A stretch of DNA of 39,256 bases from Candidatus Thorarchaeota archaeon (lineage in GTDB: Archaea > Asgardarchaeota > Thorarchaeia > Thorarchaeales > Thorarchaeaceae), in contig SDOA01000024.1 in the NCBI GenBank assembly GCA_004524595.1, positions 1 to 39,256 of the forward strand, written 5' to 3'. A program made the translations under genes and the position numbers. Positions within the stretch are counted from its first letter, which is position 1. Each line of letters opens with the position of its first letter. The notes below the pieces were generated by a model. That model did no database searches. It saw only the letters and a list, made by a program, of their open reading frames with translations, and was not told the DNA's origin. This document shows, one piece after another, positions 176 to 39,256 of the stretch.

Positions 176-370
176 ATGCCTAAAAGTACTAAGAAGAGTC
201 GGAAGAAGAAAGGATCAGGACCCCTACCCAGTGGCGGGGCAGGGTTGATCAGATTCTTCGAAGACGAAACACCAGGCATCAAGATAGGTCCGACAACAGT
301 TGTGATACTAGCAAGTATTCTTGTTGTTTCCACCATTATTGCGCATGTACTCTACCTTGTAGGGAACTAA
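176..370 (+). CDS. secG: Preprotein translocase subunit Sec61-beta (SecG-type)
   Basis: Small tail-anchored subunit of the SecYE translocon in the cytoplasmic membrane. The 64-residue protein has a Lys/Arg-rich start, the family signature GSGPLPSGGAGLIRFFEDE at about 13-31, then TPGIKIGP and a single C-terminal membrane helix at about 40-60. Length and order match archaeal Sec61-beta. An upstream ATG at 128 would add 16 residues, but the ATG at 176 has AGGTGA at 165-170 with a 5-base spacer and restores the usual family start. A hairpin directly follows the stop, and the eL42 operon begins about 100 bases downstream with its own TATA box. Confidence 0.95.
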   Translation: MPKSTKKSRKKKGSGPLPSGGAGLIRFFEDETPGIKIGPTTVVILASILVVSTIIAHVLYLVGN

Positions 371-4914: not shown

Positions 4915-5310
4915 TTATTGCGATTCAATAAAGGATTTGTAGGCTGCCGCGTCCATCAATACAGCAAGATCTTTATCAAGATTTGATGGTCGGACCTTAA
5001 ACATCCACCCTTTGCCATAACAGTCTTCGTTGACAATCTCTGGTGCATCTTCTAGTTCTGTATTTACTTCAACAATCTCACCGGTAATAGGAGAGAAGAT
5101 ATCAGAAGATGCTTTCATGGACTCGACAAGCCCACACTCATCGCCGGCTTTGAGAACTGTGCCAGCTTCAGAGATTTCAACGAAAGTAATCTCATGTAGG
5201 GAATTCTGAGCATAATCAGTTATTCCAATTACTGCCAAATCTCCTTCGATTCTGACATATTCATGTTCAGAGCTATAATATAATCCATCTTTGACTTCGG
5301 TGCCACCCAT
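4915..5310 (-). CDS. gcvH: Glycine cleavage system H protein (lipoyl carrier)
   Basis: Lipoylated carrier that shuttles the aminomethyl group from the P to the T protein in glycine cleavage. The 131 residues match the family: KDGLYYSSEHEYVRIEG, then GITDYAQ, then the lipoylation site VESMKASSD with K66 as acceptor, then GEIVEVN and the C-terminal GWMFKV. The ATG at 5310 has GGTGG about 6 bases upstream. It lies 54 bases downstream of gcvT on the same strand. The P protein (gcvPA/PB) and L protein are not in this window. Confidence 0.96.
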   Translation of the reverse strand: MGGTEVKDGLYYSSEHEYVRIEGDLAVIGITDYAQNSLHEITFVEISEAGTVLKAGDECGLVESMKASSDIFSPITGEIVEVNTELEDAPEIVNEDCYGKGWMFKVRPSNLDKDLAVLMDAAAYKSFIESQ

Positions 5311-5364
5311 TGTAGTCCACCAACACTTTCAGGTTGCAGTACTCGGTTTAAATGAGTTTGGATG

Positions 5365-6510
5365 TTACACAGAACGTGTTCCACCATACTTCTCAGGATC
5401 ATAGAAAGGCCATTCAGCAACCTGAGCCTTTCTATAACGACCTTTTATGTCGATTTCAATGATGTCATCTACACTAACTGTATCAGGGGGAACATAACCC
5501 AGACCAATCCCTTTTCCTAAGATGGGAGATATGCCTCCACTTGTGGTTTTCCCTATGACTCGACTATCAAGTAAAATTGGGTACTCTTCTCTAGGAATCC
5601 CTCTATCAATCATAATATAACCAATTCGTATCTTCTTGACACCTTCCTCTTTATGACGTTTAACAACTTCATACCCGATATAGATCGGATCAACTTTAAA
5701 TTTCACAGCATAGGGTATTTTTGCTTCAATAGGAGAAGTATTTTCATCAAGTTCATGACCATATAGAACAAAACCCGCTTCTAGACGGGTAGAATCTCTG
5801 GCGCCTAGACCACATGGTTTGATTCCAAACTCTGCACCATCCTTGAGCAGCTTCTCCCAAAATCCTATTGCCCTCTTCTTTCCTTCATCAGTAAAAGGAC
5901 AGTTCAAAACAAGGATTTCAGCACCCTCTTCCCCGGTATAACCAGTTCTACACAAGTAGCAATCGTATCCAGCAATGTCAAGGCGGTTACATGTAAATCG
6001 ACCAAATTCATTCATATCTCTTCCAGACATATTTTCTAAAAGCTTGAGTGCTTTTGGCCCTTGTACTGCAATCATTGCAATTTCCTTAGAATTATCGACA
6101 ACTTGAGCATCGAAACGTTTCGATTGCTCTTTGAGGTGTTTGTATATTTTCGGACCGTTCGCAGCATTTGTAACCCAGATGAATTCATCCTCTTCAATTC
6201 GATAGAGCATCAAATCATCATGGATTCCGCCCCTCTCGTTCAGACAAGTGGTATAATGTCCGCCACTGACAGAGAGCTTGCTGACATTGTTTGTTGTGAC
6301 CGTCTGGAGAAAGTCGATGGCCTGTGGACCATTGACAAAGAAGCGGAACATGTTTGAAGTATCAAATATTCCTACTGCTTCTCTCACAACCATATGTTCT
6401 TCTCGTATGTCTGAGAATCTAACTGGCATTTCCCAGCCTACAAAATCAACTAGGTCGCCATGTTCTTTATGCCAATCATAGAGCTGAGTTCTTTCAAGCT
6501 TGTCATTCAT
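5365..6510 (-). CDS. gcvT: Aminomethyltransferase, glycine cleavage T protein
   Basis: Transfers the methylene group from H-protein-bound aminomethyl-lipoate to a tetrahydropterin, releasing ammonia. The 381-residue protein has the usual T-fold signatures: VGWEMPVRFSDIREEH near the start, NERGGIHDDLMLYR with the conserved acidic residue, RTGYTGEEGAE, and GLGARDSTRLEAGF. The usual SHM triplet is SNM here (FDTSNMFRF). GGTGA 8 bases before ATG 6510 supports the start. It is divergent from a dihydropteroate synthase gene across 85 bases, which fits a one-carbon/pterin neighbourhood. Whether the acceptor is tetrahydrofolate or tetrahydromethanopterin cannot be read from the sequence. Confidence 0.94.
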   Translation of the reverse strand: MNDKLERTQLYDWHKEHGDLVDFVGWEMPVRFSDIREEHMVVREAVGIFDTSNMFRFFVNGPQAIDFLQTVTTNNVSKLSVSGGHYTTCLNERGGIHDDLMLYRIEEDEFIWVTNAANGPKIYKHLKEQSKRFDAQVVDNSKEIAMIAVQGPKALKLLENMSGRDMNEFGRFTCNRLDIAGYDCYLCRTGYTGEEGAEILVLNCPFTDEGKKRAIGFWEKLLKDGAEFGIKPCGLGARDSTRLEAGFVLYGHELDENTSPIEAKIPYAVKFKVDPIYIGYEVVKRHKEEGVKKIRIGYIMIDRGIPREEYPILLDSRVIGKTTSGGISPILGKGIGLGYVPPDTVSVDDIIEIDIKGRYRKAQVAEWPFYDPEKYGGTRSV

Positions 6511-7465: not shown

Positions 7466-8175
7466 ATTGGAAAGACTGGGAGCCAATCTACCTCACGATT
7501 GTTGATAGACTTCATTTGGATCCATATCAGGACCGAAAAGCGACAGAGTTACTTACTGAGATGTTAAGTCCTGTTGATCCCACACCTCTCATTGCTCAAT
7601 TATATGAGATGATTAATGACAAAACAATTGTTATTTGTGGTGCAGGACCTTCCCTTGAGAGACACATTCAGGAAATGATAGAGAGAAAGGAATGTCGAGA
7701 TGCCATATATGTAGCTGCTGATGGTGCAGTATCAGTATTGTTGGATAATAATTGCCAGTGTGGTATAATAGCAACTGATCTAGATGGTGATTTAGACCAT
7801 ATCAAAGAAGCGGCTGAGAGAGGAGCACAGCTAATAGTACATGGGCATGGAGATAATATCGAGAAAATTAGTGACATAGTACCAACCCTTGAACAAGTAT
7901 TAGGGAGTACTCAAGTTGAGCCTACTTACCGAACATTTCTCTGGGGAGGTTTCACTGATGGCGATAGAGCATGTCATATTGTATCCGACTATTCTCCAAA
8001 GCAGATGATACTTGCAGGTATGGATTTTGGTAGAATTGTAGGAAAGTGGTCTAAACCCAATCAAGATTCACATTTCCCAGCGACTGAAAGAAAGATGATC
8101 AAGTTAGGGATTGCTCAGGACCTCATATCTTCTCTCTTCAGACGTGTGAATATACCCTATGTCATTCTTGAATAA
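7462..8175 (+). CDS. mptE: 6-hydroxymethyl-7,8-dihydropterin pyrophosphokinase, archaeal type (MptE)
   Basis: Archaeal DUF115-family enzyme that makes the pterin diphosphate used by dihydropteroate synthase; unrelated to bacterial FolK. The 237 residues show VICGAGPSLERHI, AADGAVSVLL, ATDLDGDLDHI, VHGHGDN, WGGFTDGDRA and LAGMDFGRIVGKWSKP, the thiamin-pyrophosphokinase-like pattern of MptE. The start ATG overlaps the TGA of the upstream synthase gene, and the two products act in consecutive steps, which supports both calls. Confidence 0.9.
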   Translation: MNWKDWEPIYLTIVDRLHLDPYQDRKATELLTEMLSPVDPTPLIAQLYEMINDKTIVICGAGPSLERHIQEMIERKECRDAIYVAADGAVSVLLDNNCQCGIIATDLDGDLDHIKEAAERGAQLIVHGHGDNIEKISDIVPTLEQVLGSTQVEPTYRTFLWGGFTDGDRACHIVSDYSPKQMILAGMDFGRIVGKWSKPNQDSHFPATERKMIKLGIAQDLISSLFRRVNIPYVILE

Positions 8176-11581: not shown

Positions 11582-13519
11582 ATGACTGATAATTCGCCTG
11601 TCTATAAAGAGTTCTTTCCTTATGTAGAACCCAGACAGGGTCAAAATGAAATGATGTCAGAGATTGAAAATGCAGTAAGATCTTCCGTAAACATCTGTGC
11701 AGAGGCACCAAATGGTTTTGGAAAGACTTGTGTTACTCTGAGTGGAATTCTTCCATGGATTAAGAAGAATGACGGTAAAATCCTTTATTGTGCAAGAACG
11801 CATAGACAACTGGATCGTGCAATGGAGGAAATGAGTGAGATTTCTAAAAAACAAGACGTTTCAGGGGTTTCCTTTCGTGGCAGAAATCATATGTGTTTGA
11901 ACCCGTTTGTGATTGAAAATGCAGACTTTGTCGCACCTATCAGTGAAGTATGCGGACAGCTCAAGGCTACAGGAAGATGTTCATACTATGAGAAATTGAA
12001 GAGAGCGGGAGAACCAGAAGACCTGTTAGCAGAATGTCCAAAAAAAGTGTTAACAGCGCCTGAAATAGTAAAGATTGCAGAGAGTAGGGGCATTTGTCCA
12101 TATGAGATGGCAAAGCGTCTTGCTAAAGTAGTAGATGTTGTTGCGCTCTCTTACCTCTATGTATTTGACCCATGGATTCTGGAAGTATTTGTACCAGATT
12201 TGGGAACTCCGCCTTCAAAGATGGTTCTGGTGCAAGATGAAGCTCACAATGTTCCAACAACAGCACTAGACTCAGCAAGTGATTCTCTGACTATCCGAGT
12301 TGTTAGACAGGCAACGAGAGAAGCAAGTACAGGACCATATAAAGATGGCACGTCATTTGAATTCTGTAAAGCATTTACAAAGAAATTACTTGATTTCTCT
12401 TCAGAGTTGAGAGAACATGATGAGAGGATAGTAGATCCCCAGGAAATTGTGGAATTATCAGTAAAAGCGGCGCGTCTAGATTCAGCAGATAGAGTCCTTC
12501 ACCATATGCTGGACCATGGTACAAAGATAAGAAAAGGATTATTAAAATCTGGCAAATTTCCTCGGTCAGCGATACATAGAGTGAGTGAGTTTCTCCTCAG
12601 ATGGTTGCGATGTTCAAAACGTGATGATTACTCGTTCTTAATTGCATCGTCTCGTAGTAGTGGTGGAGTAAAAAGAGTTTCATTGGACCTTGTAGCACTA
12701 AATCCAACTTCTGTCACAGCACCTATCCTTAAGATGGTACATAGTTCAGTAGCAATCTCTGGGACAATATCACCATTGGATGCATACACTGAGATGTTAG
12801 GATTTGGACAAGATTCAATCAAAGTCACTTATCAAAGTCCATTTGCAATTAGGAATAGACTAGGACTGATTGTGAACGGACTTGATACATCATTCGAGAA
12901 TAGAAATGATATGATGTTTGAAAGACTTGTAAATCATTGTCTAGCAGTTGCAAATGCGACACCTGGAAATACGGGGATATTCACCTCTAGCTACTCGATA
13001 GCACGGTCTCTAGTTGATGCAGGATTAGAACGACGACTAAAGAGAAAACTGTTCGTTGAACGACCTGGAATGAAGGGAACAGATAATGATAAGATGATTG
13101 AAGAGTTCAAAGCTCAAGGTGAGAAGAGGGGTGCAGTATTGTTAGGAGTACAGGGAGGACGCAATTCAGAGGGAGGGGATTTTCCAGGAGCAACAATGGA
13201 GAGTGTCGTTGTTGTGGGGGTTCCCTACGCAAAACCCACCCCTCGTATGGAGGCTCTTATCAAATACTATGATGTCACATTCAATCAAAAGGGTAGAGAC
13301 TATGCGTATGTGCTTCCAGCCATGACTAGGGCAATTCAGGCTGCTGGACGACCTGTTCGAAGATTGGATGATAGAGGCGCAATTGTATTACTTGACCAGA
13401 GATTTTCAACACCATATCTATCAAGATTCATACCATCATGGTTACGAGAGGTGCTCCAAATAGTACCTGAGGATCCTGATGTGATTTCACATCATGTTGA
13501 GAGTTTCTTTATGACTTGA
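11582..13519 (+). CDS. xpd: XPD/Rad3-family Fe-S DNA helicase
   Basis: 5'-3' superfamily 2 helicase homologous to the TFIIH subunit XPD, acting in repair or replication-fork processing. From ATG 11582 it is 645 residues. It shows PRQGQNEMM, Walker A APNGFGKT (42-49), a cysteine-bearing insert (CLNP, CGQLKATGRC, CP, then GICPYEMAK) for the 4Fe-4S domain, the DEAH box QDEAHN, and C-terminal motif VI (QAAGRPVRR). The frame is open back to a TTG at 11480, but that would leave only 14 bases to the divergent gene. The 3' end overlaps the convergent RNase H-like gene by 11 bases. Confidence 0.93.
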   Translation: MTDNSPVYKEFFPYVEPRQGQNEMMSEIENAVRSSVNICAEAPNGFGKTCVTLSGILPWIKKNDGKILYCARTHRQLDRAMEEMSEISKKQDVSGVSFRGRNHMCLNPFVIENADFVAPISEVCGQLKATGRCSYYEKLKRAGEPEDLLAECPKKVLTAPEIVKIAESRGICPYEMAKRLAKVVDVVALSYLYVFDPWILEVFVPDLGTPPSKMVLVQDEAHNVPTTALDSASDSLTIRVVRQATREASTGPYKDGTSFEFCKAFTKKLLDFSSELREHDERIVDPQEIVELSVKAARLDSADRVLHHMLDHGTKIRKGLLKSGKFPRSAIHRVSEFLLRWLRCSKRDDYSFLIASSRSSGGVKRVSLDLVALNPTSVTAPILKMVHSSVAISGTISPLDAYTEMLGFGQDSIKVTYQSPFAIRNRLGLIVNGLDTSFENRNDMMFERLVNHCLAVANATPGNTGIFTSSYSIARSLVDAGLERRLKRKLFVERPGMKGTDNDKMIEEFKAQGEKRGAVLLGVQGGRNSEGGDFPGATMESVVVVGVPYAKPTPRMEALIKYYDVTFNQKGRDYAYVLPAMTRAIQAAGRPVRRLDDRGAIVLLDQRFSTPYLSRFIPSWLREVLQIVPEDPDVISHHVESFFMT

Positions 13520-14279
13520 GAACCTTCAGTGTTTCTTCTATTGTTTTATTCTTTGTAAGTATCTCACGAGCATCATAGGAGGATATTGTCTGTTGTCCAC
13601 GAGTCAACTTTTTCACAAACTGCTTTAGAGACCGTATATACCCTTCTTTGGGTTCAAGGATAATGTCTTGAGCGGTTATATCTCGTCCAGTTCTACCAGC
13701 TATGAGAATTGCAGAAGACTCGTCAGATTTAGCACCACCAATAATTGTCGTGCATTTCTCATTCACAAGTTCTATTGTAAGACTAGAAGTGGATTTGTTA
13801 ATTGAACGTAGTAAAAGTGCTGTATATAGTTTAAATCCAGTTCCAATTCGAACTATTTTTTGACAGTCAGGAAATAGTTTCCCTGCATAGAGCGTCAAGC
13901 GTTCACAGAGATTGGCAATCATCTCAGGAGAGATTAGAGAGTTCTTGTACACAACTATTCCATCGATGACCATAGCAATGCCAGAGGTCATACCAGGATC
14001 TATTCCTATAATGGCACGATAAGGATATTTGATTCTGTTTAATTTAGATATTATTTCTATTTGTACAAGATCAACATCAAAATCCTCTTGAACTGCAACT
14101 CTTCCATCGTGATGTTCATGGCCGTCCTCAATTCCTGTGATTATAACATGTGATTGGTCACATCGGGTGTCTGCAGGTGAGCAGATAATGAATTTGATAC
14201 CAAGTTTCTTCAGAAGCTGAACCGTACGGTAAAGAATTCTGGGGTTTTGGGTGGCAACTGCAGCATCCCATTTTGGCAT
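13509..14279 (-). CDS. Archaeal protein with RuvC/RNase H-like core, function unknown
   Basis: A 256-residue protein. The N-terminal part (about 1-60, KWDAAVATQNPRILYRTVQ, LGIKFIICSP) looks like a small alpha/beta domain. From about 88 it has IIGIDPGMTSGIAMVIDG, the first strand pair of a RuvC/YqgF-type RNase H fold with Asp94 as candidate metal ligand. Later ELVNEKCTT and SDESSAILIAGRTG follow, with acidic residues that could complete the site. The C-terminus is basic. It lies between XPD and RadB, so a nucleic-acid role, possibly a nuclease, is plausible but unproven. It overlaps XPD tail to tail by 11 bases. Confidence 0.72.
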   Translation of the reverse strand: MPKWDAAVATQNPRILYRTVQLLKKLGIKFIICSPADTRCDQSHVIITGIEDGHEHHDGRVAVQEDFDVDLVQIEIISKLNRIKYPYRAIIGIDPGMTSGIAMVIDGIVVYKNSLISPEMIANLCERLTLYAGKLFPDCQKIVRIGTGFKLYTALLLRSINKSTSSLTIELVNEKCTTIIGGAKSDESSAILIAGRTGRDITAQDIILEPKEGYIRSLKQFVKKLTRGQQTISSYDAREILTKNKTIEETLKVLKS

Positions 14280-14342
14280 CGACTAATCCTTCTAGATATG
14301 CTTATCACTGGAGGTGTGTATTAATGAAGTTGTGAGGTATTT

Positions 14343-15032
14343 TTGATTCTTCCGTCAGGTGTTTTTCTTCTGGATCGCATCATGAATGGCGGTCTCAACA
14401 CAGGAGTATTTACTCATGTTTATGGTGAGGCAGCATCAGGAAAGACCACCTTTGGTCTACAATTTGTCGGAGCTATATGTAGACAGGAATTCGGTACTGT
14501 ATATATCAACTCTGAGGGAACGTCGCCCCTTGAACGCCTTGAACAGATGACTGAGAAAAGGTTCAATGATATTCAGACCTTGGTCAAGATATTGAAACCT
14601 CGAGATTTTAGTGAACAAGGTATTCTCATTGATGACATTGACTTGTATATTTTGAAAGATACACGATTAGTGATAATAGACACACTAACAAAACATTACC
14701 GACTTGCATTGGAAGATAAGAAGACCAATTATTCAAATCATAGAGAATTAAATAGACAAGCGGGAGTCTTGAAAGGATTGGCTCATAATAGAGATGTTGC
14801 GGTACTTGTGTTAAATCAAGTTACTGCAAAAATGGATGCGATTGATAGTATCGAGCCGGTCGCTGGAAATATCATGGATTACTGGTCAGATTATATTATC
14901 GAGTTGAGAATAGGAAGGAAACCTGGAGAACGTATAATGAGGCGGCTGAGGCCAGAAGGAGATAAAAGTGAGGAGAAAATGACACTCACATCGACTGGAT
15001 TTGTGTCTAATACTACCATTGAGAAAGAGTGA
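14343..15032 (+). CDS. radB: DNA repair and recombination protein RadB
   Basis: RecA-superfamily paralogue of RadA that assists homologous recombination. The 229 residues comprise just the ATPase core: SGVFLLDRIMNGGLNTGVFTHVYG, Walker A GEAASGKT at 28-35, Walker B LVIIDT, an AVLVLNQVT strand and a C-terminal RLRPEGD. There is no N-terminal HhH domain, as expected for RadB rather than RadA. The start is TTG at 14343, with GAGGT at 14334-14338 and a 4-base spacer; the first in-frame ATG would remove conserved residues. It is divergent from the RNase H-like gene, and CarS follows 37 bases later. A KaiC-like ATPase is the alternative. Confidence 0.85.
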   Translation: MILPSGVFLLDRIMNGGLNTGVFTHVYGEAASGKTTFGLQFVGAICRQEFGTVYINSEGTSPLERLEQMTEKRFNDIQTLVKILKPRDFSEQGILIDDIDLYILKDTRLVIIDTLTKHYRLALEDKKTNYSNHRELNRQAGVLKGLAHNRDVAVLVLNQVTAKMDAIDSIEPVAGNIMDYWSDYIIELRIGRKPGERIMRRLRPEGDKSEEKMTLTSTGFVSNTTIEKE

Positions 15033-31272: not shown

Positions 31273-31378
31273 ATAATTCTGTGTTATTAAAACAAATACA
31301 AAAATGTCGAAGGAAGACTTCAAAAGCACCGATTATCTACGGCGATTTCATTAATCCATAAAGTGAGTGAGTAAGAAC

Positions 31379-32320
31379 ATGGGAACAGGTTCTGGTAAAG
31401 GAAAGACCATCCTTTTTGGAGAGCATTTTGTTGTATATGGACTTCCTGCATTGGCTGCTGGAATTGCCTCTGAAACGACTGCAAAACTGACTCGTGTGCG
31501 ATCTTTTGGACATACTCTTGTTGATAATAGGCCAGCAATGCCAGGGTATAAGAAAAAGAAGTATGATGAGCAGAAAGCCTCACTAGATAATATTCTGAAA
31601 TTTCTTAATATTGATACTACCAGAATTGGATTTCAGATAGACCTTGGGGGAGATCTGGTCTGTGCGTCAGGAATTGGAGCTAGTGCAGCTAGTTGTGTTG
31701 CTATTGTAAGAGCTCTGAATGATGAATTCAAACTAGGGCTTAGTGACGAACAGGTCAATGAAGCTGCCTATGAAGGAGAGAAAGGATATCATGGTACACC
31801 TTCAGGACTAGATAATACAGTATCGACTTATGGAGGATTGATATGGTTTGAGAGAGAGTTGAGTGGTGGACCTCCAAAGTTCAAGAAGCTTAAGCTCGAC
31901 AAGGCTATGCATCTTGTCATAGCATCAACTGGTATCACTGCAAGTACAAAGGGGGTTGTAGGAGATGTCAAGGCAAAGAAAGACACAGACGCAGACTGGT
32001 TTGACTCAATCGCAGAGGAGTATACTCAACTTGTTTACGATGGAAAAGAGGCCTTGATTAAATTAGATACCGTCAAAGTTGGGAAATTAATGAATAGAAA
32101 TCATGAGTTGCTTCAACAAATGACTGTTTCTTGTCAAGAACTTGACAAATTAGTGAAAGTTGCACGCGAAAATGGCGCACTTGGAGCAAAAATGACTGGG
32201 ACTGGGCGAGGCGGGAATATGATTGCATTGGCGCCTGATGAACCAATAGCAACGAAGATTGCAGCAGCTCTTGAGAAGGCTAGAGCTGCAGGGGTCTGGA
32301 CAACAACATTTGGTCTATGA
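31379..32320 (+). CDS. mvk: Mevalonate kinase
   Basis: GHMP kinase that makes 5-phosphomevalonate, the entry to isoprenoid synthesis. The 313 residues (from ATG 31379) start GTGSGKGKTILFGEHFVVYG. They contain the ATP-binding ASGIGASAA (96-104), the EKGYHGTPSGLDNTVSTYGG block and the C-terminal GALGAKMTGTGRGG. GTGAG a few bases before the ATG supports this start over the GTG at 31367. First gene of a four-gene operon for the archaeal mevalonate pathway; UbiD starts 10 bases after its stop. Confidence 0.95.
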   Translation: MGTGSGKGKTILFGEHFVVYGLPALAAGIASETTAKLTRVRSFGHTLVDNRPAMPGYKKKKYDEQKASLDNILKFLNIDTTRIGFQIDLGGDLVCASGIGASAASCVAIVRALNDEFKLGLSDEQVNEAAYEGEKGYHGTPSGLDNTVSTYGGLIWFERELSGGPPKFKKLKLDKAMHLVIASTGITASTKGVVGDVKAKKDTDADWFDSIAEEYTQLVYDGKEALIKLDTVKVGKLMNRNHELLQQMTVSCQELDKLVKVARENGALGAKMTGTGRGGNMIALAPDEPIATKIAAALEKARAAGVWTTTFGL

Positions 32321-32330
32321 GGTGAACTTG

Positions 32331-33638
32331 GTGATACTTGAGAATTATATTAAGGCGTTACAAGAACAAGAAAGAATTACAACTATCAAGAAAGAGATAT
32401 CAAAACATCTCGAAATAGCGGGTGTATTGAAGACACTTGAACCAACGCCAGTATTATTTGAGAATGTCAAAGAGAGTGAGTTCCGAGTTGCTGGAAACCT
32501 GTTCTGTAATAAGAAACAGATTGCAGATTATTTTGGAATCAAGACAGAAGAGATTATCCCAACACTAACACAAGCAATTGAAAATCGTAGTCCTCCTGAA
32601 AGGACTACAAATGCAGCCTGTCAAGAGGTGGTGGAGAACACTGTTGATCTAGATAGGCTTCCAATCTTATTCCATAACAAAGTTGATGGGGGGCCATACA
32701 TTTCCTCCGGGGTTGTAGTGGCTACAGACCCTGAATATGGCCAGAATTTGGATTTTCATAGGGCAATGCAAATTGGGAAAGATAAGATGGTGGCAAGAGT
32801 AGTCAGTGGGAGAGATTTCTTTAATTTTCTGAAACGAAATGGCGAAGTCGATGTTGCATTCTGTATTGGTAATACTCCTGAAGTGCTTATTGCAGCCGCT
32901 ACTTCTGTTGATACAGGCATAGATGAGTTAGAGATTGCTAATGCCCTTAGAAATATCAAGGTGACCAAGGCAAAGTCAGTAGATCTTATGATACCAGCAG
33001 ATAGTGAGTTTGTGTTAGAAGGTCGTGTCTTCTTGGAAGAGAGGCATGAAGAGGGACCATTCATAGACCTCACGGAAACTGTTGATGTAATTAGAGAAGA
33101 ACCAGTCTTTGAAGTCAAGAAGATAACACATAGAAAAACTGCAATTTGGCAAGGACTGCTTCCTGGTAGATCGGAACACAAGATATTGATGGGGATGCCC
33201 AGAGAGCCGACAGTCTTTAAGAAAGTGAAGGATAGAGGTATTGATGTTCTTGATGTGTATATCACACCAGGTGGTGCAAGCTGGTTACATGTTGCAGTAA
33301 AGATTCGAAAGAAAAACGAAGACGACGGAATCAAGACCTTGGAGGCTGCATTTGTAGGTCATAAGAGTGCAAAACACATCTGGGTCTATGATGAAGATAT
33401 TGACATATACTCAGATGAGGAGAGAGAATGGGCTATGGCTACAAGATTTCAGGCTGATGATGATCTACTCATAAAGGACCGAGAGCCGGGTAGTTCACTA
33501 GACCCAAGCGCAGAACTAGGTACTAAGATGACGACCAAGTGCGGTTTTGATTGTACCAAAGTATTAGATACTAAGGGCAAGGGATTCGAGAAGGCAAGAT
33601 TCCCCGAAGTAGATCTAAAGAAGTTTCTTGGTGATTGA
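32331..33638 (+). CDS. UbiD-family decarboxylase, probable anhydromevalonate phosphate decarboxylase
   Basis: Prenylated-FMN-dependent decarboxylase; in the archaeal mevalonate pathway this family converts trans-anhydromevalonate phosphate to isopentenyl phosphate. The 435 residues show UbiD features: DLDRLPILFHNKVDGGPYISSGVVVATDPEYG, FHRAMQIGKDKMVAR, AFCIGNTPEVLIAAA and EGPFIDLTETVD. A GTG start at 32331 follows AGGTGA, which overlaps the mvk stop; the open frame upstream lies inside mvk. The substrate call rests on its place between mevalonate kinase and both phosphomevalonate dehydratase subunits. The UbiX flavin prenyltransferase it needs is not in this window. Confidence 0.9.
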   Translation: MILENYIKALQEQERITTIKKEISKHLEIAGVLKTLEPTPVLFENVKESEFRVAGNLFCNKKQIADYFGIKTEEIIPTLTQAIENRSPPERTTNAACQEVVENTVDLDRLPILFHNKVDGGPYISSGVVVATDPEYGQNLDFHRAMQIGKDKMVARVVSGRDFFNFLKRNGEVDVAFCIGNTPEVLIAAATSVDTGIDELEIANALRNIKVTKAKSVDLMIPADSEFVLEGRVFLEERHEEGPFIDLTETVDVIREEPVFEVKKITHRKTAIWQGLLPGRSEHKILMGMPREPTVFKKVKDRGIDVLDVYITPGGASWLHVAVKIRKKNEDDGIKTLEAAFVGHKSAKHIWVYDEDIDIYSDEEREWAMATRFQADDDLLIKDREPGSSLDPSAELGTKMTTKCGFDCTKVLDTKGKGFEKARFPEVDLKKFLGD

Positions 33639-33639
33639 G

Positions 33640-34827
33640 ATGGTACTTGAATTAACAATTGAAGAAAAAGAGATGCTTGATGGTAAACATGGTAAAGCCA
33701 CACGAAAAGCAATGGAGATTATTACAACCTTAGGTGAAATCTATGGAGCTAGGAGGTTAATCCCAGTTTCTAGCGTACAGATTGCAGGAGTGTCCTACGA
33801 CAACCTTGGTGAGTCAGGCCTTGAATATCTCTCCGAGATGGCAGAAGATGGACAGACAAGAGTTCTGACAACTCTCAATCCAGCTGGAATGGACATGATA
33901 GAATGGAAGAAGCATGGAATCAACTCAGAGTTTGCAGAAAAACAACAGCGTGTCGTTGATGCTTTCGAGAAGATGGGGGTTGTTACAACGTGTACCTGTA
34001 CACCATATCTTATCGGGAACTTACCTCATTTTGGAGAGCATATAGCATGGGCTGAATCATCAGCAGTTTGTTTTGCAAACTCTGTTATTGGTGCATTTAC
34101 AAACAGAGAGGGAGGACCAAGCGCAATCGCTGCGGCGCTCACAGGAAGAACTGCAGAATATGGACTACATTTCGAAGAGAATAGAACAGCCCAAGTCAAG
34201 TACGAAGTCAGAGTTACACTGAAGGATACGAATGATTTTGGCCTCTTGGGGCAAGTTATTGGAACTCGGACAGGGAAGACGATTCCATATATTGCAGGGG
34301 TATCTAGGGCGTCTTCAGAGGAGTTGAAGTCGTTCTGTGCTTCAATTGCAACCTATGGTGGAGTGGCTATCTTCCATATGGAGGGAATAACTCCAAATCG
34401 TACGACCATTCCTGACAAGATTGAGATAATCACAGAAGAAGACCTACAGTCAGCCAGAATGCAACTTGATGATGAAGATGCAGAGATTGACTTCATTAGT
34501 GTTGGATGTCCACATGCAAGTATCAAAGAGATTGCACAAATTGCCAAGATGCTTGATGGAAAGACCGTCACAGAGGGAAAAACTGTATGGATTACCACCG
34601 CCAAACCAACAAAGGATTTGGCAGTCAAGATGGGGTATTATGATACCATTGAGAGAGCTGGGGCATTTCTTGTTGCAGATGCTTGTTGTGCTGTTGCACC
34701 ACTAAAAGGGAGGTTCAAAGGGCTGATGACCGACTCTGCAAAGGCCTGTTTCTATGCACGTGGAAAGAACAAATTCAAGACGGAGATACGAACAGTTGAA
34801 GAGTGTATCAAGGAGGCTTTGACATAA
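33640..34827 (+). CDS. Phosphomevalonate dehydratase large subunit (aconitase X type)
   Basis: Large subunit of the AcnX-type Fe-S enzyme that dehydrates 5-phosphomevalonate to trans-anhydromevalonate phosphate. The 395 residues include KATRKAMEIITTLGEIYGA, VSSVQIAGVSYDNLGESGLE, TLNPAGMD and NREGGPSAIAAALTGRT. Cysteine-containing motifs CTCTPYL, SVGCPHAS and CFYARG probably hold the cluster. ATG 33640 is one base after the UbiD stop, with GGTGA upstream. The small-subunit gene begins on its stop codon (TAATG), consistent with a two-subunit enzyme. Confidence 0.93.
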   Translation: MVLELTIEEKEMLDGKHGKATRKAMEIITTLGEIYGARRLIPVSSVQIAGVSYDNLGESGLEYLSEMAEDGQTRVLTTLNPAGMDMIEWKKHGINSEFAEKQQRVVDAFEKMGVVTTCTCTPYLIGNLPHFGEHIAWAESSAVCFANSVIGAFTNREGGPSAIAAALTGRTAEYGLHFEENRTAQVKYEVRVTLKDTNDFGLLGQVIGTRTGKTIPYIAGVSRASSEELKSFCASIATYGGVAIFHMEGITPNRTTIPDKIEIITEEDLQSARMQLDDEDAEIDFISVGCPHASIKEIAQIAKMLDGKTVTEGKTVWITTAKPTKDLAVKMGYYDTIERAGAFLVADACCAVAPLKGRFKGLMTDSAKACFYARGKNKFKTEIRTVEECIKEALT

Positions 34828-35216
34828 TGCAAGGCAGGAAAATATTCAGAGGAAAAGTGATTGGTGAGGCATTGGTTACCGGAGATAATATCTCGTTCTA
34901 TGGGGGGTGTGACCCTGAAACGGGTGAGATAGTGGAGAAAGGACATCATCTAGAGGGAAAATCAATTACGGGGAAAATCCTTGTCTTCCCTAGTGGAAAA
35001 GGGTCCACCGTAGGCTCTTACGTTCTCTATGCACTGAGTAAAGTTGGAAAAGCACCTCTAGCAATTGTCAACAAGGTAATGGATCCTGTTGTTGCAGTAG
35101 GATGTATAATCTCAGAGATACCAGCAGTGGACCAGATTGAGATTGATAGGATTAAGACAGGACAAAAAATAGAGGTGGACGCCGATAGCGGCGTCGTAAC
35201 TATAATTGAAGATTAA
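34827..35216 (+). CDS. Phosphomevalonate dehydratase small subunit (DUF126)
   Basis: Swivelling-domain subunit that pairs with the AcnX large subunit. The 129 residues show FRGKVIGEALVTGDNISFYGGCDPETGEI, then GKSITGKILVFPSGKGSTVGSYVLYAL and a C-terminal VVTIIED, the DUF126 pattern including the conserved SGKGS loop. The start ATG overlaps the upstream stop by one base, and AGGAGG at 34811-34816 is a strong ribosome binding site. Last gene of the operon; its stop abuts the convergent rps2 stop with no spacer. Confidence 0.94.
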   Translation: MQGRKIFRGKVIGEALVTGDNISFYGGCDPETGEIVEKGHHLEGKSITGKILVFPSGKGSTVGSYVLYALSKVGKAPLAIVNKVMDPVVAVGCIISEIPAVDQIEIDRIKTGQKIEVDADSGVVTIIED

Positions 35217-35852
35217 TCAGAATCTTTGTACTTGTGGCTCGAAGTCATCAGGAGTATATGCAGGTTCACCATCTTCTGGGATATCACCCCGCTCCTTTAG
35301 GACTTGAGTTGTCAGGAGATAGTATACTAAGGCAAGAGACTTGCGGCCTCTATTGTTAGTGGGAATCACAAGGTCTACGTTTGTAGTCACGTTATCTGTA
35401 TCACATAGTGCTACAACAGGAACGCCAATTCTGGCGGCTTCATTTAGAGCCTGTTGGTCAGTACGGGGGTCAGTTAGTATGACCACATCAGGTTCAATGT
35501 ATTTCCTGGGACCTGCAATATTTGGGTTGGTCAAAGTTCCAGGAACGAACCTCTCAGTGAAGGCACTAGCACCAATATAGTGACAAAAGGTTTCAACAGG
35601 ACGCTTTCCATACACACGTCCAGAAACAACTACTATCTTTGATGGATCGAATCTAGCAAGGAACTTGCCAGCCTGTCTGATACGTTCATCAGTCTTACGA
35701 ACATCGAGAACATATAGACCAATAGGACGCTGCCTATACACAAAAGGCTCCATATCTTGGGTCTTGACTTGGGTCCCGATGTGTGCTCCCGCAGCTAAAA
35801 ATCGGTCCATGCTAATGAGTAATTCAAGATCAGATTCGGGAATCTCACTCAT
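35217..35852 (-). CDS. rps2: 30S ribosomal protein uS2
   Basis: Small-subunit ribosomal protein S2/SA family. The 211 residues start [28 protein letters not shown] when read in two parts, and carry [30 protein letters not shown] and [44 protein letters not shown] and [17 protein letters not shown] follow, all typical of archaeal uS2. GGAGGCAAA precedes the ATG. A TATA-like TAAATATG lies about 45 bases upstream, giving it its own promoter. A truncated copy of its 5' end lies 3.4 kb away at the right edge of the window, in the same orientation. In many archaea rps2 neighbours mvk, as here. Confidence 0.97.
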
Positions 35853-35865
35853 TCTAATTTGCCTC
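35841..35865. repeat. Left copy of a 25-bp direct repeat at the rps2 start
   Basis: This stretch covers the first four codons of rps2 and 13 bases upstream of the ATG. It matches 39232-39256 in the same orientation at 23 of 25 positions (the first 16 are identical). Because the match runs into non-coding bases, it points to DNA duplication rather than protein constraint alone. Candidate left boundary of the cassette at 35866-39231. Confidence 0.75.
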
Positions 35866-35892
35866 CGGTAATTGTGCTATGATAGACAACAG

Positions 35893-35900
35893 CATATTTA
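35893..35900 (-). promoter_or_regulatory. TATA-like element for rps2
   Basis: On the minus strand TAAATATG lies about 41-48 bases upstream of the rps2 ATG, between rps2 and the HNH gene. It would give a leader of roughly 20 bases with the GGAGG signal. Confidence 0.4.
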
Positions 35901-35984
35901 GTAATCACAGCCTAGAAATTATCACTCTGATTGATATTCACCCCGAACCCTTTGGCAGTGCTTAAAACCATTTCGACAGGGCAA

Positions 35985-37280
35985 TTATGATGCTCCATTT
36001 CTAGCAAGTTCTTTTAGTGCTATTTCTATCTTACTCCACTCACATCGATAGTTCTTCATTAATGAATGAGTTATCCGATGGCAGGGTTTGCATAGAGCAG
36101 CCCAATCTTCAGGATTGAGTGTAAGTAAATCTTTTTTTCGCCAAAGGATTTCTACAGGATGCGGAACTCCATCCTTTTTATGGATGACTGCTCTTGGTTT
36201 ACCGCAGGTTACACACATTTTGCCAAAAATCCTATCGCGAAGTTCTCGGATGGAAGCTTTATCTCTTATTTCTAGTCCATGTTCTTCGCGAAATCTGCAG
36301 AGTGTTGTTATGGATACTTCTAGCTGTTTAGATATATCATCCAAAGTAAGTTCTTCATCATAGTACAATCGCTTGAACTCATCAAGATCAATCTCCAAGG
36401 ATTGGAATCCAACAGGTCTTGCGTCCCATCCCTGCTCTTCTAAAATACGGTCAAAAGGTTTCTTCGAAATACCTAGACGATTACAGACTTCATCTTTTGG
36501 TAGTCTCTTCTCAAAGTACAGAAAACGTATAATCTCAGGGTCGATTTGAATCTCCTGACCATACGGTTTATCATGTTCCTTGAAAATCTGACGTATGGGA
36601 TGGTAAGACACTCCGAAATGTTCTCCAATCTTTCTCAAACTCAATCCTTCTTCATTGTAGAGTCTGAAGACTTCTTCGGGGTCTATCACTTTTTCATAGG
36701 TTTCCTGATACCGTGTCTTCCACCCATGTTCTTCAAAGACCCGGCGGAGGGAAGTTGTTGTCTTACAACCAAAATGAGCTGCGACATCCTTAAGGTCCCA
36801 TTTTTCATCAAAATATAATCTATAGGCTTCTTCTGGGTCTATCTCTATCGCTTGAAACCCAACTGGACGAATCTCAATCCCCTTAGCCTTAAGAATGCGC
36901 TTGATGGGCTTGCCACTCTTAAAGCCATACTTATCTCCTATCTTTTTTAGACTCAATCCATCCTCTAGGTAGAGTCTTCGTACCTCTTCAGAATCAACGT
37001 CCATCTGAGATTCAGCTTTATCAGATATCTTCAGTTTTTCAGAATGCTCAGCATTGTACTTCCGAATAATATGACCTCGGTCTTCTCTAGGTAGTTTTTC
37101 TTCGGACTTGAGTTCGACTGTATCTGAATCTCTCGGTTTTTCATAATGTTCAGAATTGTAACTGCGAATAATCTCATCACGTTCGTCAGTAGTTAAGAGA
37201 TGCTTTTCAGTATCTTTTATCTCTGTCTTTCTCTCCTCAAGACGATATTCCTCATCTGAGAATTCATCGCTCTCTCTCAT
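35985..37280 (-). CDS. Five tandem HTH-like repeats plus HNH nuclease-like domain
   Basis: From ATG 37280 the protein has 431 residues. The first 90 are charged and contain two copies of a short repeat (DERDEIIRSYN, EDRGHIIRKYN). Then five HTH-like units of about 45-52 residues begin near 95, 146, 199, 246 and 297, each like IDPEEVFRLYNEEGLSLRKI followed by GEHFGVSYHPIRQIFKEH. Units 1 and 4 share the tail RPVGFQ. The C-terminal domain has C356xxC359, H374, C397xxC400-H401 and H405, an HNH-type zinc/nuclease pattern. The ATG overlaps the preceding stop (ATGA) behind GGAGG. Probable DNA-binding nuclease, homing- or defence-like; target unknown. Confidence 0.8.
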   Translation of the reverse strand: MRESDEFSDEEYRLEERKTEIKDTEKHLLTTDERDEIIRSYNSEHYEKPRDSDTVELKSEEKLPREDRGHIIRKYNAEHSEKLKISDKAESQMDVDSEEVRRLYLEDGLSLKKIGDKYGFKSGKPIKRILKAKGIEIRPVGFQAIEIDPEEAYRLYFDEKWDLKDVAAHFGCKTTTSLRRVFEEHGWKTRYQETYEKVIDPEEVFRLYNEEGLSLRKIGEHFGVSYHPIRQIFKEHDKPYGQEIQIDPEIIRFLYFEKRLPKDEVCNRLGISKKPFDRILEEQGWDARPVGFQSLEIDLDEFKRLYYDEELTLDDISKQLEVSITTLCRFREEHGLEIRDKASIRELRDRIFGKMCVTCGKPRAVIHKKDGVPHPVEILWRKKDLLTLNPEDWAALCKPCHRITHSLMKNYRCEWSKIEIALKELARNGAS

Positions 37281-37543
37281 GTTATGCAGCCCCTCCAATA
37301 GTATGGTGATTCAGTACGTGAACCAATTATTCTCCGATGTTCAGCTGTTCTATCGGTAGTATCAGAACTTTCAGATTGGATTGAATACCCTGCGTTATAT
37401 TCACGAAGAATTTCATCATGTTCCTCAGGAGCTAGAGTGTGTGACTTATAGTCGTCTGCCTTGATGGATCTCTCTTCAAGACTGATGCGTTTGGACAACC
37501 GCCCTTCACACTCATCAAGAGAGGATTGAATACCTTCATCCAC
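37277..37543 (-). CDS. 88-residue repeat protein, middle gene of the cassette operon
   Basis: Charged, soluble 88-residue protein. Its central part, LEERSIKADDY then HTLAPEEHDEILREYN, closely matches the first repeat of the downstream HNH protein, LEERKTEIKDT then HLLTTDERDEIIRSYN. The two therefore share an ancestral repeat that continues across the gene boundary. The start is GTG 37543 behind a strong GAGGAGG in the end of the upstream gene. The stop overlaps the next start as ATGA. No known family. It may be a split-off N-terminal module of the HNH protein. Confidence 0.7.
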   Translation of the reverse strand: MDEGIQSSLDECEGRLSKRISLEERSIKADDYKSHTLAPEEHDEILREYNAGYSIQSESSDTTDRTAEHRRIIGSRTESPYYWRGCIT

Positions 37544-38516
37544 TACTACCTACCTCCTCAAGATGATCAATTAGGTAGTTACAGTAGTGTGTAGCCTTTG
37601 TGAAATCAGGAACTAATTTCTGTACAAGTCCCATCACATAAGCATCAGCGTGTTCCTTACTTTGACTAAGGCATTTAGAAAATACCTCTCTGAAATCTGG
37701 CGATTCTGTCAGAAAGATGAGATTGTCGAGAACAACGGAATCGGGCTCCCAGCGCTTGATGAATGGAAGGTTCTGACTGCATAGATGTGGATTCAAGATG
37801 AAAAAGGGCGCCATCAAGTCAGCCACTTGTTGGTCTGACGGGGGTCTAATCCGTTCACTTCGTTGAAAATCAATAACCCGAACATTCACAGGCGGACCTG
37901 TGAATCCCTGATGGAGGACAGCCTCACCACAGTTCATAGAACCAATATACAACAATTGTTCATCGTTCAAGTTTGCCTGTCCTCCCAACAAGACTCTCTC
38001 TCGTGCATCCTTGAGCGAGTGAATTATCGTGATTCCCGGGAGCTTCACAGCAGCATCAGCCAGACAGACATAAAACTTCAGGTCTTCAGGATAGAGGGAC
38101 CATGCCTGAGAGAACTCGAGCCGTAATTCAATATCATTGAATCTGTGAGCATAGACAGCCGAAGCAGTCCTAAAACGAAGATCCATGCGGAAGTTGGAAC
38201 CATCATACTCCTCAGTCAGTGTACAGAATGATGAATCATCATATGCTAGATTTGACGGAGTATCAGCTGTTCCATATACCTCGTTGTATAGATTTGTGGT
38301 GGGAACCCAGTACCAGCTGGTGTCTGCGGGTGTAGTACACTCATTCGGATCTAGAGAATCATTAACGTCCCAAGTAGAATCATCGCCATTCTGTTCAACT
38401 GATTCTATCGATGTGTCAGTATTATCAGTATCCAAGAGAGAAGTTGGTATGTTACCAAGTACTAGGACTATAAGAGTTACAATTACGACCATTCGTATGG
38501 CAGTTCTTCGTTTCAA
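37536..38516 (-). CDS. Signal-anchored domain fused to the tail of a HerA/VirB4-like ATPase
   Basis: A 326-residue protein with two dissimilar halves. Residues 1-26 form a basic, hydrophobic signal or anchor (AIRMVVIVTLIVLVLG). Residues 27-150 are acidic, Asp/Ser/Thr-rich and extracytoplasmic in style. From about 151 it reads LADAAVKLPGITIIHSLKDARERVLLGGQ, then ANLNDEQLLYIGSMNCGEAVLHQG and PPVNVRVIDF. This resembles the C-terminal end of DUF87/HerA or VirB4-type ATPases (HRLxDxxxR..LG..xNLxxEQ...I..L..GEAVV). The Walker A and B region is missing, so ATPase activity is not expected. The fusion may be a rearrangement product. The stop overlaps the 88-aa gene by 8 bases. Confidence 0.6.
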   Translation of the reverse strand: MKRRTAIRMVVIVTLIVLVLGNIPTSLLDTDNTDTSIESVEQNGDDSTWDVNDSLDPNECTTPADTSWYWVPTTNLYNEVYGTADTPSNLAYDDSSFCTLTEEYDGSNFRMDLRFRTASAVYAHRFNDIELRLEFSQAWSLYPEDLKFYVCLADAAVKLPGITIIHSLKDARERVLLGGQANLNDEQLLYIGSMNCGEAVLHQGFTGPPVNVRVIDFQRSERIRPPSDQQVADLMAPFFILNPHLCSQNLPFIKRWEPDSVVLDNLIFLTESPDFREVFSKCLSQSKEHADAYVMGLVQKLVPDFTKATHYCNYLIDHLEEVGSSG

Positions 38517-38901
38517 TTTTTCATTTCTCTAGTAGTTTGTTAGACTAGTACAACGAGTGAATACCTGTGATCACCCAAGATACTATTCTACGCGTACCTT
38601 TTGTACTCACATATTTTCACATGATAGTTTGTTGAGAGATTATTGACAGAATTCATTATTGATAGTTTGTTTCTTCATTGAAACGTTACAATAGCCCTCT
38701 AAATAGAGATATCACTGATATTAGAGGTCCAAGTTGCTACATTCACGATAATAAAAGAGAGAATCGTAAAAAGAACGTCATTGTCTGGTTTCTGGATACT
38801 ATAAAAGTACCAAACTGCAAAATCAAGCAGTCTGGAATGTTTTCGAAAGAGTTGCCCATTTGAGTTTATTAAGGGACTTGATAGATAGGGAGATGATAGC
38901 A
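38517..38901. other. Divergent intergenic region of the cassette with repeats and a TATA box
   Basis: 385 A/T-rich bases between the minus-strand cassette operon and the small membrane-protein gene. TAGTTTGTT occurs three times (38533-38541, 38625-38633, 38663-38671). The last two extend to TGATAGTTTGTT and lie 38 bases apart. CTATAAAAG at 38799-38807 is a good plus-strand TATA box. The 61-codon frame at 38678-38863 crosses that box and has no protein-like features, so I do not call it. Confidence 0.5.
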
Positions 38902-39147
38902 ATGGAACAAAAAACAATCGATATGCTGACGATATTTAGTTCTCTGATTATTGTCATATGTGTAGTATTTTACATGTTGACTATCAGTCTACAAGTAATA
39001 GGATATGATAGCACATATAGATACTATAATGACCATATGACAGAATGGGCTATTCTTCAGTTCTTGGCTGCATTCTTAGTTCTTCAAATTGCAGGATATA
39101 TTCTGAAACTAAGAGAGGCATTGGCGGCATCGAGTGATAAGCAGTAG
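38902..39147 (+). CDS. Small two-helix membrane protein
   Basis: From ATG 38902 an 81-residue protein with a polar start (MEQKTIDM) and two membrane helices at about 9-32 (IFSSLIIVICVVFYMLTISL) and 48-67 (FLAAFLVLQIAGYI). A tyrosine-rich loop (YDSTYRYYNDH) lies between, and the tail LKLREALAASSDKQ is charged. AGGGAG 9 bases upstream supports this start over the ATG at 38893 or the TTG at 38860. It is the only plus-strand gene in the cassette. No family recognised. Confidence 0.68.
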   Translation: MEQKTIDMLTIFSSLIIVICVVFYMLTISLQVIGYDSTYRYYNDHMTEWAILQFLAAFLVLQIAGYILKLREALAASSDKQ

Positions 39148-39180
39148 TGAAGTAGTCAGTGAAGTTTGGTGTCTTTTCGG

Positions 39181-39243
39181 TTAGGTCATCCACTTGTCCA
39201 TAGGTGTCAGGAGTTCTAGGTCTCCAACTTCAATCTCACTCAT
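39181..39243 (-). pseudogene. Truncated copy of the rps2 5' end
   Basis: The frame encodes MSEIEVGDLELLTPMDKWMT and then stops. It aligns with the uS2 start: MSEI, DLELL and MD are shared, with two residues between DLELL and MD in both. GAGGTAAAATAGA precedes the ATG, matching the GGAGGCAAATTAGA ahead of rps2. Homology fades after the stop. It is in the same orientation as rps2, 3.4 kb away, with the accessory cassette between. Confidence 0.7.
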
Positions 39244-39256
39244 TCTATTTTACCTC
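39232..39256. repeat. Right copy of the 25-bp direct repeat
   Basis: Matches 35841-35865 at 23 of 25 positions in the same orientation and runs to the last base of the window, so the repeat may extend further. Candidate right boundary of the cassette. Confidence 0.75.

Follow-up and report, generated by a model that had tools for sequence, protein, structure and literature searches.

What kind of genetic unit lies between a ribosomal protein gene and a second, broken copy of that gene's own beginning? The question is raised by contig SDOA01000024.1 of Candidatus Thorarchaeota archaeon (assembly GCA_004524595.1), which was analysed over a length of 39256 bases (the window; it appears to be the whole contig) and in which the rps2 gene is followed, on its promoter side, by a cassette of accessory genes and then, at the contig end, by another rps2 start. 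It is proposed here that the interval is probably a homing-type mobile element, internally deleted, that sits in the 5′ coding end of rps2 immediately after ATGGACAAGT. Throughout, L, G and C numbers denote loci read in related genomes, genomes, and contigs, respectively.

The full-length rps2 gene occupies positions 35217 to 35852 of the reverse strand, and the repeat together with comparison with relatives identifies its 5′ end (about codons 1 to 18) as the second copy. The direct repeat, 35841-35865(-) versus 39232-39256(-), spans 25 bases with 2 mismatches, exactly as a preliminary description of this DNA had stated, and was matched in 0 of 100 dinucleotide shuffles; the window edge at 39256 falls inside it. 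At this edge, a frame at 39181-39243(-) translates as MSEIEVGDLELLTPMDKWMT followed by a stop codon. The rps2 starts of L008, L009, L010 and L014 read MSEIEVADLELLTPMDKYLAAG, and the edge frame follows them up to MDK; in relatives such as these the protein begins MSEIEVADLELLTPMDKYLAAGCHIGTQ, and it is after MDK that the edge copy breaks. The rps2 stub accordingly consists of codons 1 to 17 plus one nucleotide (nt) (39192 to 39243, reverse strand; MSEIEVGDLELLTPMDK), and it is preceded by the leader of the interrupted start (39244 to 39256, reverse strand), which carries a Shine-Dalgarno-like GAGG, resembles the rpoN-rps2 leader of relatives and is cut by the contig end. The idea that the edge copy is a simple target-site duplication was rejected, because its sequence has diverged and agrees with native starts.

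A scan of bacterial and archaeal genomes for rps2 gave 109 confirmed loci, the best 80 of which were kept; 35 of these (L001-L035) are Thorarchaeota by title or close to them, with L026 titled Lokiarchaeota and L029 and L030 titled 'archaeon' only. In 32 of the 35, rpoN is found upstream of rps2 at a distance of no more than 330 nt, the two genes being contiguous in these cassette-free relatives. The exceptions are L003 and L035, where a gene encoding helix-turn-helix (HTH) repeats and an HNH domain stands directly upstream of rps2, and L032, whose sequence begins within rps2. The last genes on one contig of G022 (L116) are those for a HerA-like ATPase and an HTH/HNH protein, after which come about the first 145 bases of rps2; L116 and L032, which overlap in rps2, probably belong together across contigs. 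The far sides of the break were located by searching the element-bearing genomes for rps9. In G001 rpoN is followed by MSEIEVSDDMLVDMDR and then the break, in G002 by LIGEGEISEADLLIPMDR and then the break, and in G022 by an rps2 start cut at the contig end. When the DNA is aligned, the break comes after ATGGAYMRNT in the window, G001 and G002, that is, after the first base of the codon that follows MDK or MDR (in the G002 stub one further base agrees with the relative L021), and since all three break at the same base the insertion is site-specific. For the window itself, rpoN beside the edge copy is seen in relatives only, because the contig apparently ends with the window. Comparisons that the preliminary description had suggested have therefore turned out as it anticipated, with empty sites, the upstream neighbour and a same-base stub beyond the element in G001 and G002, and cassettes of the same kind at rps2 in L003, L035 and L116; its own alternatives, that relatives might lack an empty site or that the edge frame might be an unrelated conserved peptide, are excluded.

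Between the two starts of the window lie the four open reading frames (ORFs) that had been listed for it: the HTH-repeat/HNH gene (35985 to 37280, reverse strand), its partner of 88 amino acids (aa) (37277 to 37543, reverse strand), a chimeric ORF of 326 aa (37536 to 38516, reverse strand), and a 95-aa membrane protein (38860 to 39147, forward strand). The first encodes a 431-aa endonuclease-like protein, the proposed homing enzyme, which in an AlphaFold model (predicted local distance difference test, pLDDT, 74) consists of an N-terminal tag, five predicted tandem three-helix HTH units (residues 97-132, 149-184, 201-235, 248-283 and 299-333) and a C-terminal HNH-like domain. The HNH-like motif reads CxxC-HKKDG-CxxCH; in an alignment of 31 sequences C397, C400 and H401 are invariant, and C356, C359, H367, K369, D370 and G371 are conserved in at least 90%. 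Counting the window's own, 45 such proteins were found, and where an organism is given (7 cases) it is from the Thorarchaeota in 5. A match is present in 16 of the 47 genomes of the class, and no relative was found in the viral contigs searched with the protein and its alignment. Other HTH-repeat/HNH genes lie between genes at L164-L174, L119 and L125, where no duplicated gene start was noticed.

The rps2 element of G001 comprises at least 6.7 kb next to rpoN and 17.7 kb next to rps2, on two contigs that presumably hold one element. Residues 1-155 of the window's 326-aa ORF are 46% identical to the N-terminus of a secreted protein encoded in the left part of this element, and residues 152-326 are 68% identical to the C-terminus of a HerA/VirB4-like ATPase encoded in its right part, while the 95-aa membrane protein, whose gene lies close to where the window element begins on the left, is 56% identical over 80 aa to an ORF product from near the left end of the G001 element. 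Residues 22-73 of the 88-aa ORF, a tag fragment, match the N-terminal tag of the HNH proteins of G001 and the window and of an ORF in the rpoA1 element of G030 (37-38% identity, E 1e-6 to 6e-9). By these matches the window element is an internal-deletion derivative that lost its interior and kept the endonuclease-like gene and both ends. The chimeric anchored protein of the preliminary description is a chimera indeed, and its origin can be refined to what is evidently a deletion scar, fusing a left-end secreted protein to a right-end ATPase.

The ATPases of two relatives match DUF87 above the cut-off and TraG/TrwB-like families near it, and no relaxase was seen among the scanned ORFs. HerA-like ATPase matches occur in 25 of 227 genomes of the phylum, many of them distant, a figure that counts matches and not elements. 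The absence of a recombinase, first noted for the window, extends to its larger relatives: no integrase or recombinase family (E<=0.01) was found in any of the 36 listed ORFs of at least 60 aa in the sequenced parts of the G001 and G002 rps2 elements (contigs C134, C132 and C67, the stretches between contigs not being seen). On another contig of G030 (L362), a core consisting of the ATPase gene and genes of membrane type closely resembles the rps2 element of G001, and in G022 (L363, 7456-12430) another tagged ORF, of 754 aa, stands beside a HerA-like ATPase and small membrane-type genes.

The layout is not confined to rps2. In total, 12 pairs of stub and replacement were found at seven genes (four at rps2, three at rpl2, and one each at rpoA1, rpoA2, gcvT, pycB and hutU), spread over the window and seven genomes, 8 of the pairs being on single contigs; uninterrupted sites in relatives were seen also at rpl2, rpoA1 and rpoA2. 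At rpl2, the stop codon of rpl23 is directly upstream in 25 of 30 loci read, and among the five exceptions, which also include G011 and G002, an HTH-repeat gene with a LAGLIDADG motif, recognised by eye, lies directly upstream of rpl2 in G019, G022 and G030. In G022 a short stub (ATGGGTAGAAG) follows rpl23 on the same contig as the replacement, and G011 has a stub and a decayed element whose only remnant resembles the enzyme's C-terminus. G002 retains the scar of a nearly deleted element (L197, reverse complement, about 7930-8010; G002:C231), in which about 60 nt separate a stub (ATGGGTAGACG) from a new start. The rpl2 stub of G011 runs directly into its own inverted copy (ATGGGTAGACGTCTACCCAT; L196, about 7840-7860), possibly a footprint of repair.

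At the RNA polymerase genes, the rpoA1 stub of G030 follows rpoB with the replacement on another contig, and in G002 the rpoA2 stub, a 1313-aa tagged ORF and the replacement are all on one contig. On that contig (L118) a second HTH/HNH gene (13358-14839, 493 aa) comes after the interrupted rpoA2, followed by an ORF that reaches the contig end, and a transposase-like ORF, presumably IS110-like, lies within the rpoA2 element (5081-6397, reverse strand). At gcvT (G002), pycB (G039) and hutU (G047, where the stub is damaged) the stub, a LAGLIDADG-family gene and the replacement share one contig each. The respective enzymes are 34%, 27% and 27% identical to a protein encoded beside Sec61beta in G001 (E-values 6e-103, 1e-64 and 2e-50; family membership rests on these pairwise matches, as a profile of the family was built partly from sequences that it later found and its own E-values are not independent), and those at gcvT and hutU pass the LAGLIDADG_3 threshold of Pfam (33.0 and 24.1; cut-off 22.5). 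The HNH protein, earlier held to be the only candidate mobility enzyme, stands as the proposed homing enzyme in the window, with the amendment that other elements appear to use LAGLIDADG-type enzymes.

The next same-strand gene upstream of Sec61beta belongs to the LAGLIDADG family in 5 of 30 loci read, and also in G006; in G001 such a gene lies about 0.45 kb from Sec61beta with an opposite-strand ORF between. Positions 1 to 105 of the window (forward strand) hold the C-terminal 34 codons of a LAGLIDADG-family gene (the product is 59% identical to that of G001 across 27 aa, E=1.5e-8), followed directly by Sec61beta (176 to 370, forward strand), and the window contig is therefore bounded by an element at each end. 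LAGLIDADG-family genes also stand directly upstream of two further kinds of gene at L312, L320 and L318, which we take to be carboxyltransferase-like (G034, G011) and CoA-transferase-like (G011); no stub was seen at these three loci. Next to rps2, positions 31367-35216 of the window carry a row of GHMP-kinase-like, UbiD-like and aconitase-X-like genes, presumably the archaeal mevalonate route.

The replacement starts differ from the stubs in a manner that is most distinct at rpoA1 of G030, where the 40 residues encoded by stub and by replacement are identical although 24 of the codons differ, all synonymously (0 nonsynonymous changes). This stub differs from its close relatives L224 and L221 at only 2 and 3 codons, which identifies it as the resident copy. 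Compared with L224, the replacement has synonymous differences at 26 of 47 codons versus 94 of 823 beyond them (p=4e-12); the contrast is weaker with the more distant L212 (25/47 vs 280/823, p=0.01), and the control pair L224/L221 gives 5/47 vs 96/823. Approximately the first 47 codons were therefore replaced, leaving the protein unchanged (18 of 30 rpoA1 loci matched the start pattern used). For rpoA2, the 78 codons that precede the junction show 36 synonymous differences and 13 of other kinds; the corresponding figures are 19 and 11 in 51 codons for gcvT, and 20 and 5 in 89 codons for pycB. At rps2 the stub and the replacement diverge in protein too. The 24 codons of G001 rps2 from the site onward differ from two relatives at 9/24 and 10/24, versus 23/166 and 25/166 elsewhere (p=0.008 and 0.004), and the relatives differ from each other at 4/24 vs 21/166. 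For rps2 of the window a synonymous-divergence test was uninformative, its nearest relative being near saturation (91 of 166 codons).

Some replacement copies carry a small additional insert. Those of rpoA1 (G030) and rpoA2 (G002), besides which no other body of either gene was found in the genome concerned, have one 30-nt insert each with an in-frame stop, and the hutU copies of G047 and G019 have inserts of 32 and 31 nt that shift the frame. Removal of the insert restores the conserved protein in all four cases, and 28 of the 29 rpoA1 loci showing the motif (L227, without the motif, is outside this count) and 30 of 30 rpoA2 relatives are insert-free. A loop, ATTTC, is common to three of the four. 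The rpoA1 and rpoA2 inserts fold alike, with a 9-position stem, 3-nt bulges and a 3-bp helix plus mismatch, and shuffled inserts scored as well in 3 of 20000 (rpoA1) and 0 of 20000 (rpoA2). The canonical bulge-helix-bulge (BHB) criterion is two 3-nt bulges flanking a 4-bp helix; the archaeal cut, according to the accessible portion of one report, falls between bulge nt 2 and 3 (PMC2738675). This rule would remove exactly 30 nt when applied to the 3-bp-helix fold of rpoA1 and rpoA2, in a register chosen to give the native protein. Against an intron, the energy fold of rpoA1 favours a 4-bp helix; the canonical 4-bp BHB was rejected, because excision along it would take out 28 nt and lose the reading frame. 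The hutU inserts, too, agree poorly with the model (2002 and 625 of 20000 shuffles scored as well). The 30-32-nt inserts may possibly be mini-introns that also split the target site. Translational bypass of the T4 gene 60 type depends on matched take-off and landing codons, and it was rejected for rpoA1 and rpoA2, as inspection of the insert sequences revealed no matched codons.

How could such an element spread? The DNA itself displays, at several targets, a site-specific interruption, a promoter-side stub, a replacement start and, next to most of them, an endonuclease-like gene; cleavage, homing, copying by repair, immunity, intercellular spread and splicing are our inferences. In the proposed pathway, the HTH array of the HNH protein would recognise the conserved sequence of an rps2 gene that is still whole, the HNH domain would break this DNA, and repair from an element-bearing chromosome would copy the element in. 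The recoded start would keep the host gene working and at the same time remove the recognition site, so that the occupied allele would be immune; in other genes the small hairpin insert perhaps also removes the site. The HerA/VirB4-like ATPase and membrane proteins of the larger relatives may move DNA between cells. The earlier suggestion of an element that enters the 5′ end of a gene and supplies a replacement start is thus supported by the stubs, the empty sites and the recurrence at other genes. A wider claim, which we put forward tentatively and at somewhat less than even chances, is that these loci form a Thorarchaeota 'cleave and rescue' family in which target-specific proteins of three kinds (HTH-array/HNH, LAGLIDADG and, at the RNA polymerase genes, another type) would attack the starts of seven genes and act upstream of Sec61beta, every element bringing a recoded start that a mini-intron, spliced out of the mRNA, would shield in some cases.

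Several observations weigh against homing by these enzymes. The Pfam HNH match of the window protein is below cut-off (14.1 vs 21.4 bits), its model has a predicted template modelling (pTM) score of only 0.29, and a PDB fold search with the model gave 0 matches at E<=0.001; because the profile match is below cut-off and the fold search empty, the HNH assignment rests on motif and position. The LAGLIDADG motif of the rpl2 enzymes was recognised by eye only, with no LAGLIDADG Pfam match in the two searched, and the pycB enzyme has no Pfam match, its tie to the family being by sequence alone (27%, E=1e-64). The ORFs at rpoA1 and rpoA2 (1198 or 1313 aa) share only the N-terminal tag, and no nuclease domain was recognised in them, which weakens the 'cleave and rescue' family. 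Recoding at pycB is weak, since stub and copy are 89% identical in DNA. Many HTH/HNH and LAGLIDADG matches do not lie beside a duplicated start: a stub search at 20 loci gave 3 convincing stubs and 1 weak match, no stub was found at pycB of G022 or hutU of G019 despite a family gene directly upstream, nor at Sec61beta in G001. In the window, the full-length rps2 start resembles that of the uninterrupted rps2 of the nearest element-free relative, L001 (MSEIDVSDLDLLISMDRYLAAGAH), which shares LLISMDR..AAGAH with the replacement copy and not with the stub, while the stub resembles the start pattern of other relatives, unlike L001. Donor and resident copies are therefore indistinguishable here, and the notion that the replacement is simply foreign was not upheld for the window. 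Two histories would account for this: L001 once carried an element and retained the recoded start after losing it, or the stub side entered from another lineage. L001, L004 and L005, with uninterrupted rps2 and near to element-bearing lineages, are variable at the otherwise conserved LLTPMDKYLAAGCH site; their rps2 starts are possibly resistant or cured alleles.

The main competitor is an ordinary element of the integrative and conjugative (ICE) type with an unseen site-specific recombinase, for which the endonuclease-like gene would be cargo and the 5′ duplication an attachment (att) repeat. SXT/R391 elements enter the 5′ end of prfC and supply a new start by means of a tyrosine integrase, so the arrangement has a precedent, and the HerA/TraG/TrwB-like ATPases and membrane proteins of the larger relatives would suit it. 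The likeness to SXT/R391 ends at the integrase, as no recombinase family was detected in the 36 ORFs of the G001 and G002 rps2 elements, outside the unseen parts between contigs; in the pycB and hutU cases the enzyme gene makes up nearly all of what separates stub from copy, and the rpoA1 repeats, unlike att repeats, differ at 24 of 40 codons. We regard such an element as unlikely.

Two explanations do without mobility at rps2. Taken by itself, the window is a diverged direct repeat around accessory genes and would fit an rps2 5′ end that was duplicated locally in tandem, with subsequent drift and gene accretion, but the same break base in different genomes, the same layout at seven genes, and homologous enzymes and ATPases at different loci make this very improbable. 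A chimeric contig that joins a mobile element to rps2 is scarcely credible: although the contig ends within the repeat and both of its ends lie in elements, the same join at rps2 recurs in other assemblies and eight stub/copy pairs are on single contigs, so that the contig join envisaged in the preliminary description is unlikely. A homing-type element in the rps2 start is, in our view, the probable answer.

Among known systems, the closest appear to be the mORFs of fungal mitochondria (Allomyces atp6; Glomus atp6, atp9, cox2 and nad3), which, in the parts of the source available, are endonuclease ORFs that bring a duplicated C-terminal end and leave the native end behind (PMC3630166). In both systems an endonuclease gene adjoins a divergent replacement fragment and a native stub remains (here at rps2, rpl2, gcvT, pycB and hutU). 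The mORFs act at the 3′, C-terminal end of mitochondrial genes, whereas the present cases concern 5′ ends on archaeal contigs and include large elements that encode a HerA-like ATPase; proteins of the HTH-array/HNH kind are a further difference. The system looks like a mirror image at gene starts. HeimM2 of Heimdallarchaeum is likewise an Asgard mobile element with a homing-endonuclease-like gene, proposed for site-specific integration, but it is inserted between a 16S rRNA gene and a tRNA gene, and replacement of a gene start is not described in the accessible text (PMC8813620). The free-standing mob and seg endonucleases of phage T4 also home without an intron, and they include HNH enzymes at or in conserved genes, split ones among them (mobA, gene 60); a recoded replacement 5′ copy is not described there, as far as the available sections go (PMC2988022). 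Short inserts with a proposed BHB fold are reported from archaeal protein genes such as cbf5 in the part of the paper at hand (PMC2738675), from which the present inserts differ in their length of 30-32 nt, in their position where an endonuclease-type element joins the gene, and in a putative fold that is only partly canonical. No report of the system was found in the open literature on Asgard and Thorarchaeota mobile elements, as partially accessible and with subscription journals and bioRxiv mostly outside its coverage.

If the proposal is correct, a selfish element can live in conserved genes, some of them indispensable, without a self-splicing intron or an intein, by breaking the beginning of the gene and replacing it, in parallel to engineered homing systems with a recoded rescue. 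It becomes testable how homing elements grow into large mobile elements, and the HTH-repeat arrays would be possible modular readers of DNA. Odd gene starts and broken contigs in Asgard genomes may be explained in this manner. The 'cleave and rescue' family, if real, would be a multi-target system of its kind in the archaea; it predicts that Asgard RNA polymerase genes contain mini-introns, and mRNAs of Asgard housekeeping genes would then have to be spliced.

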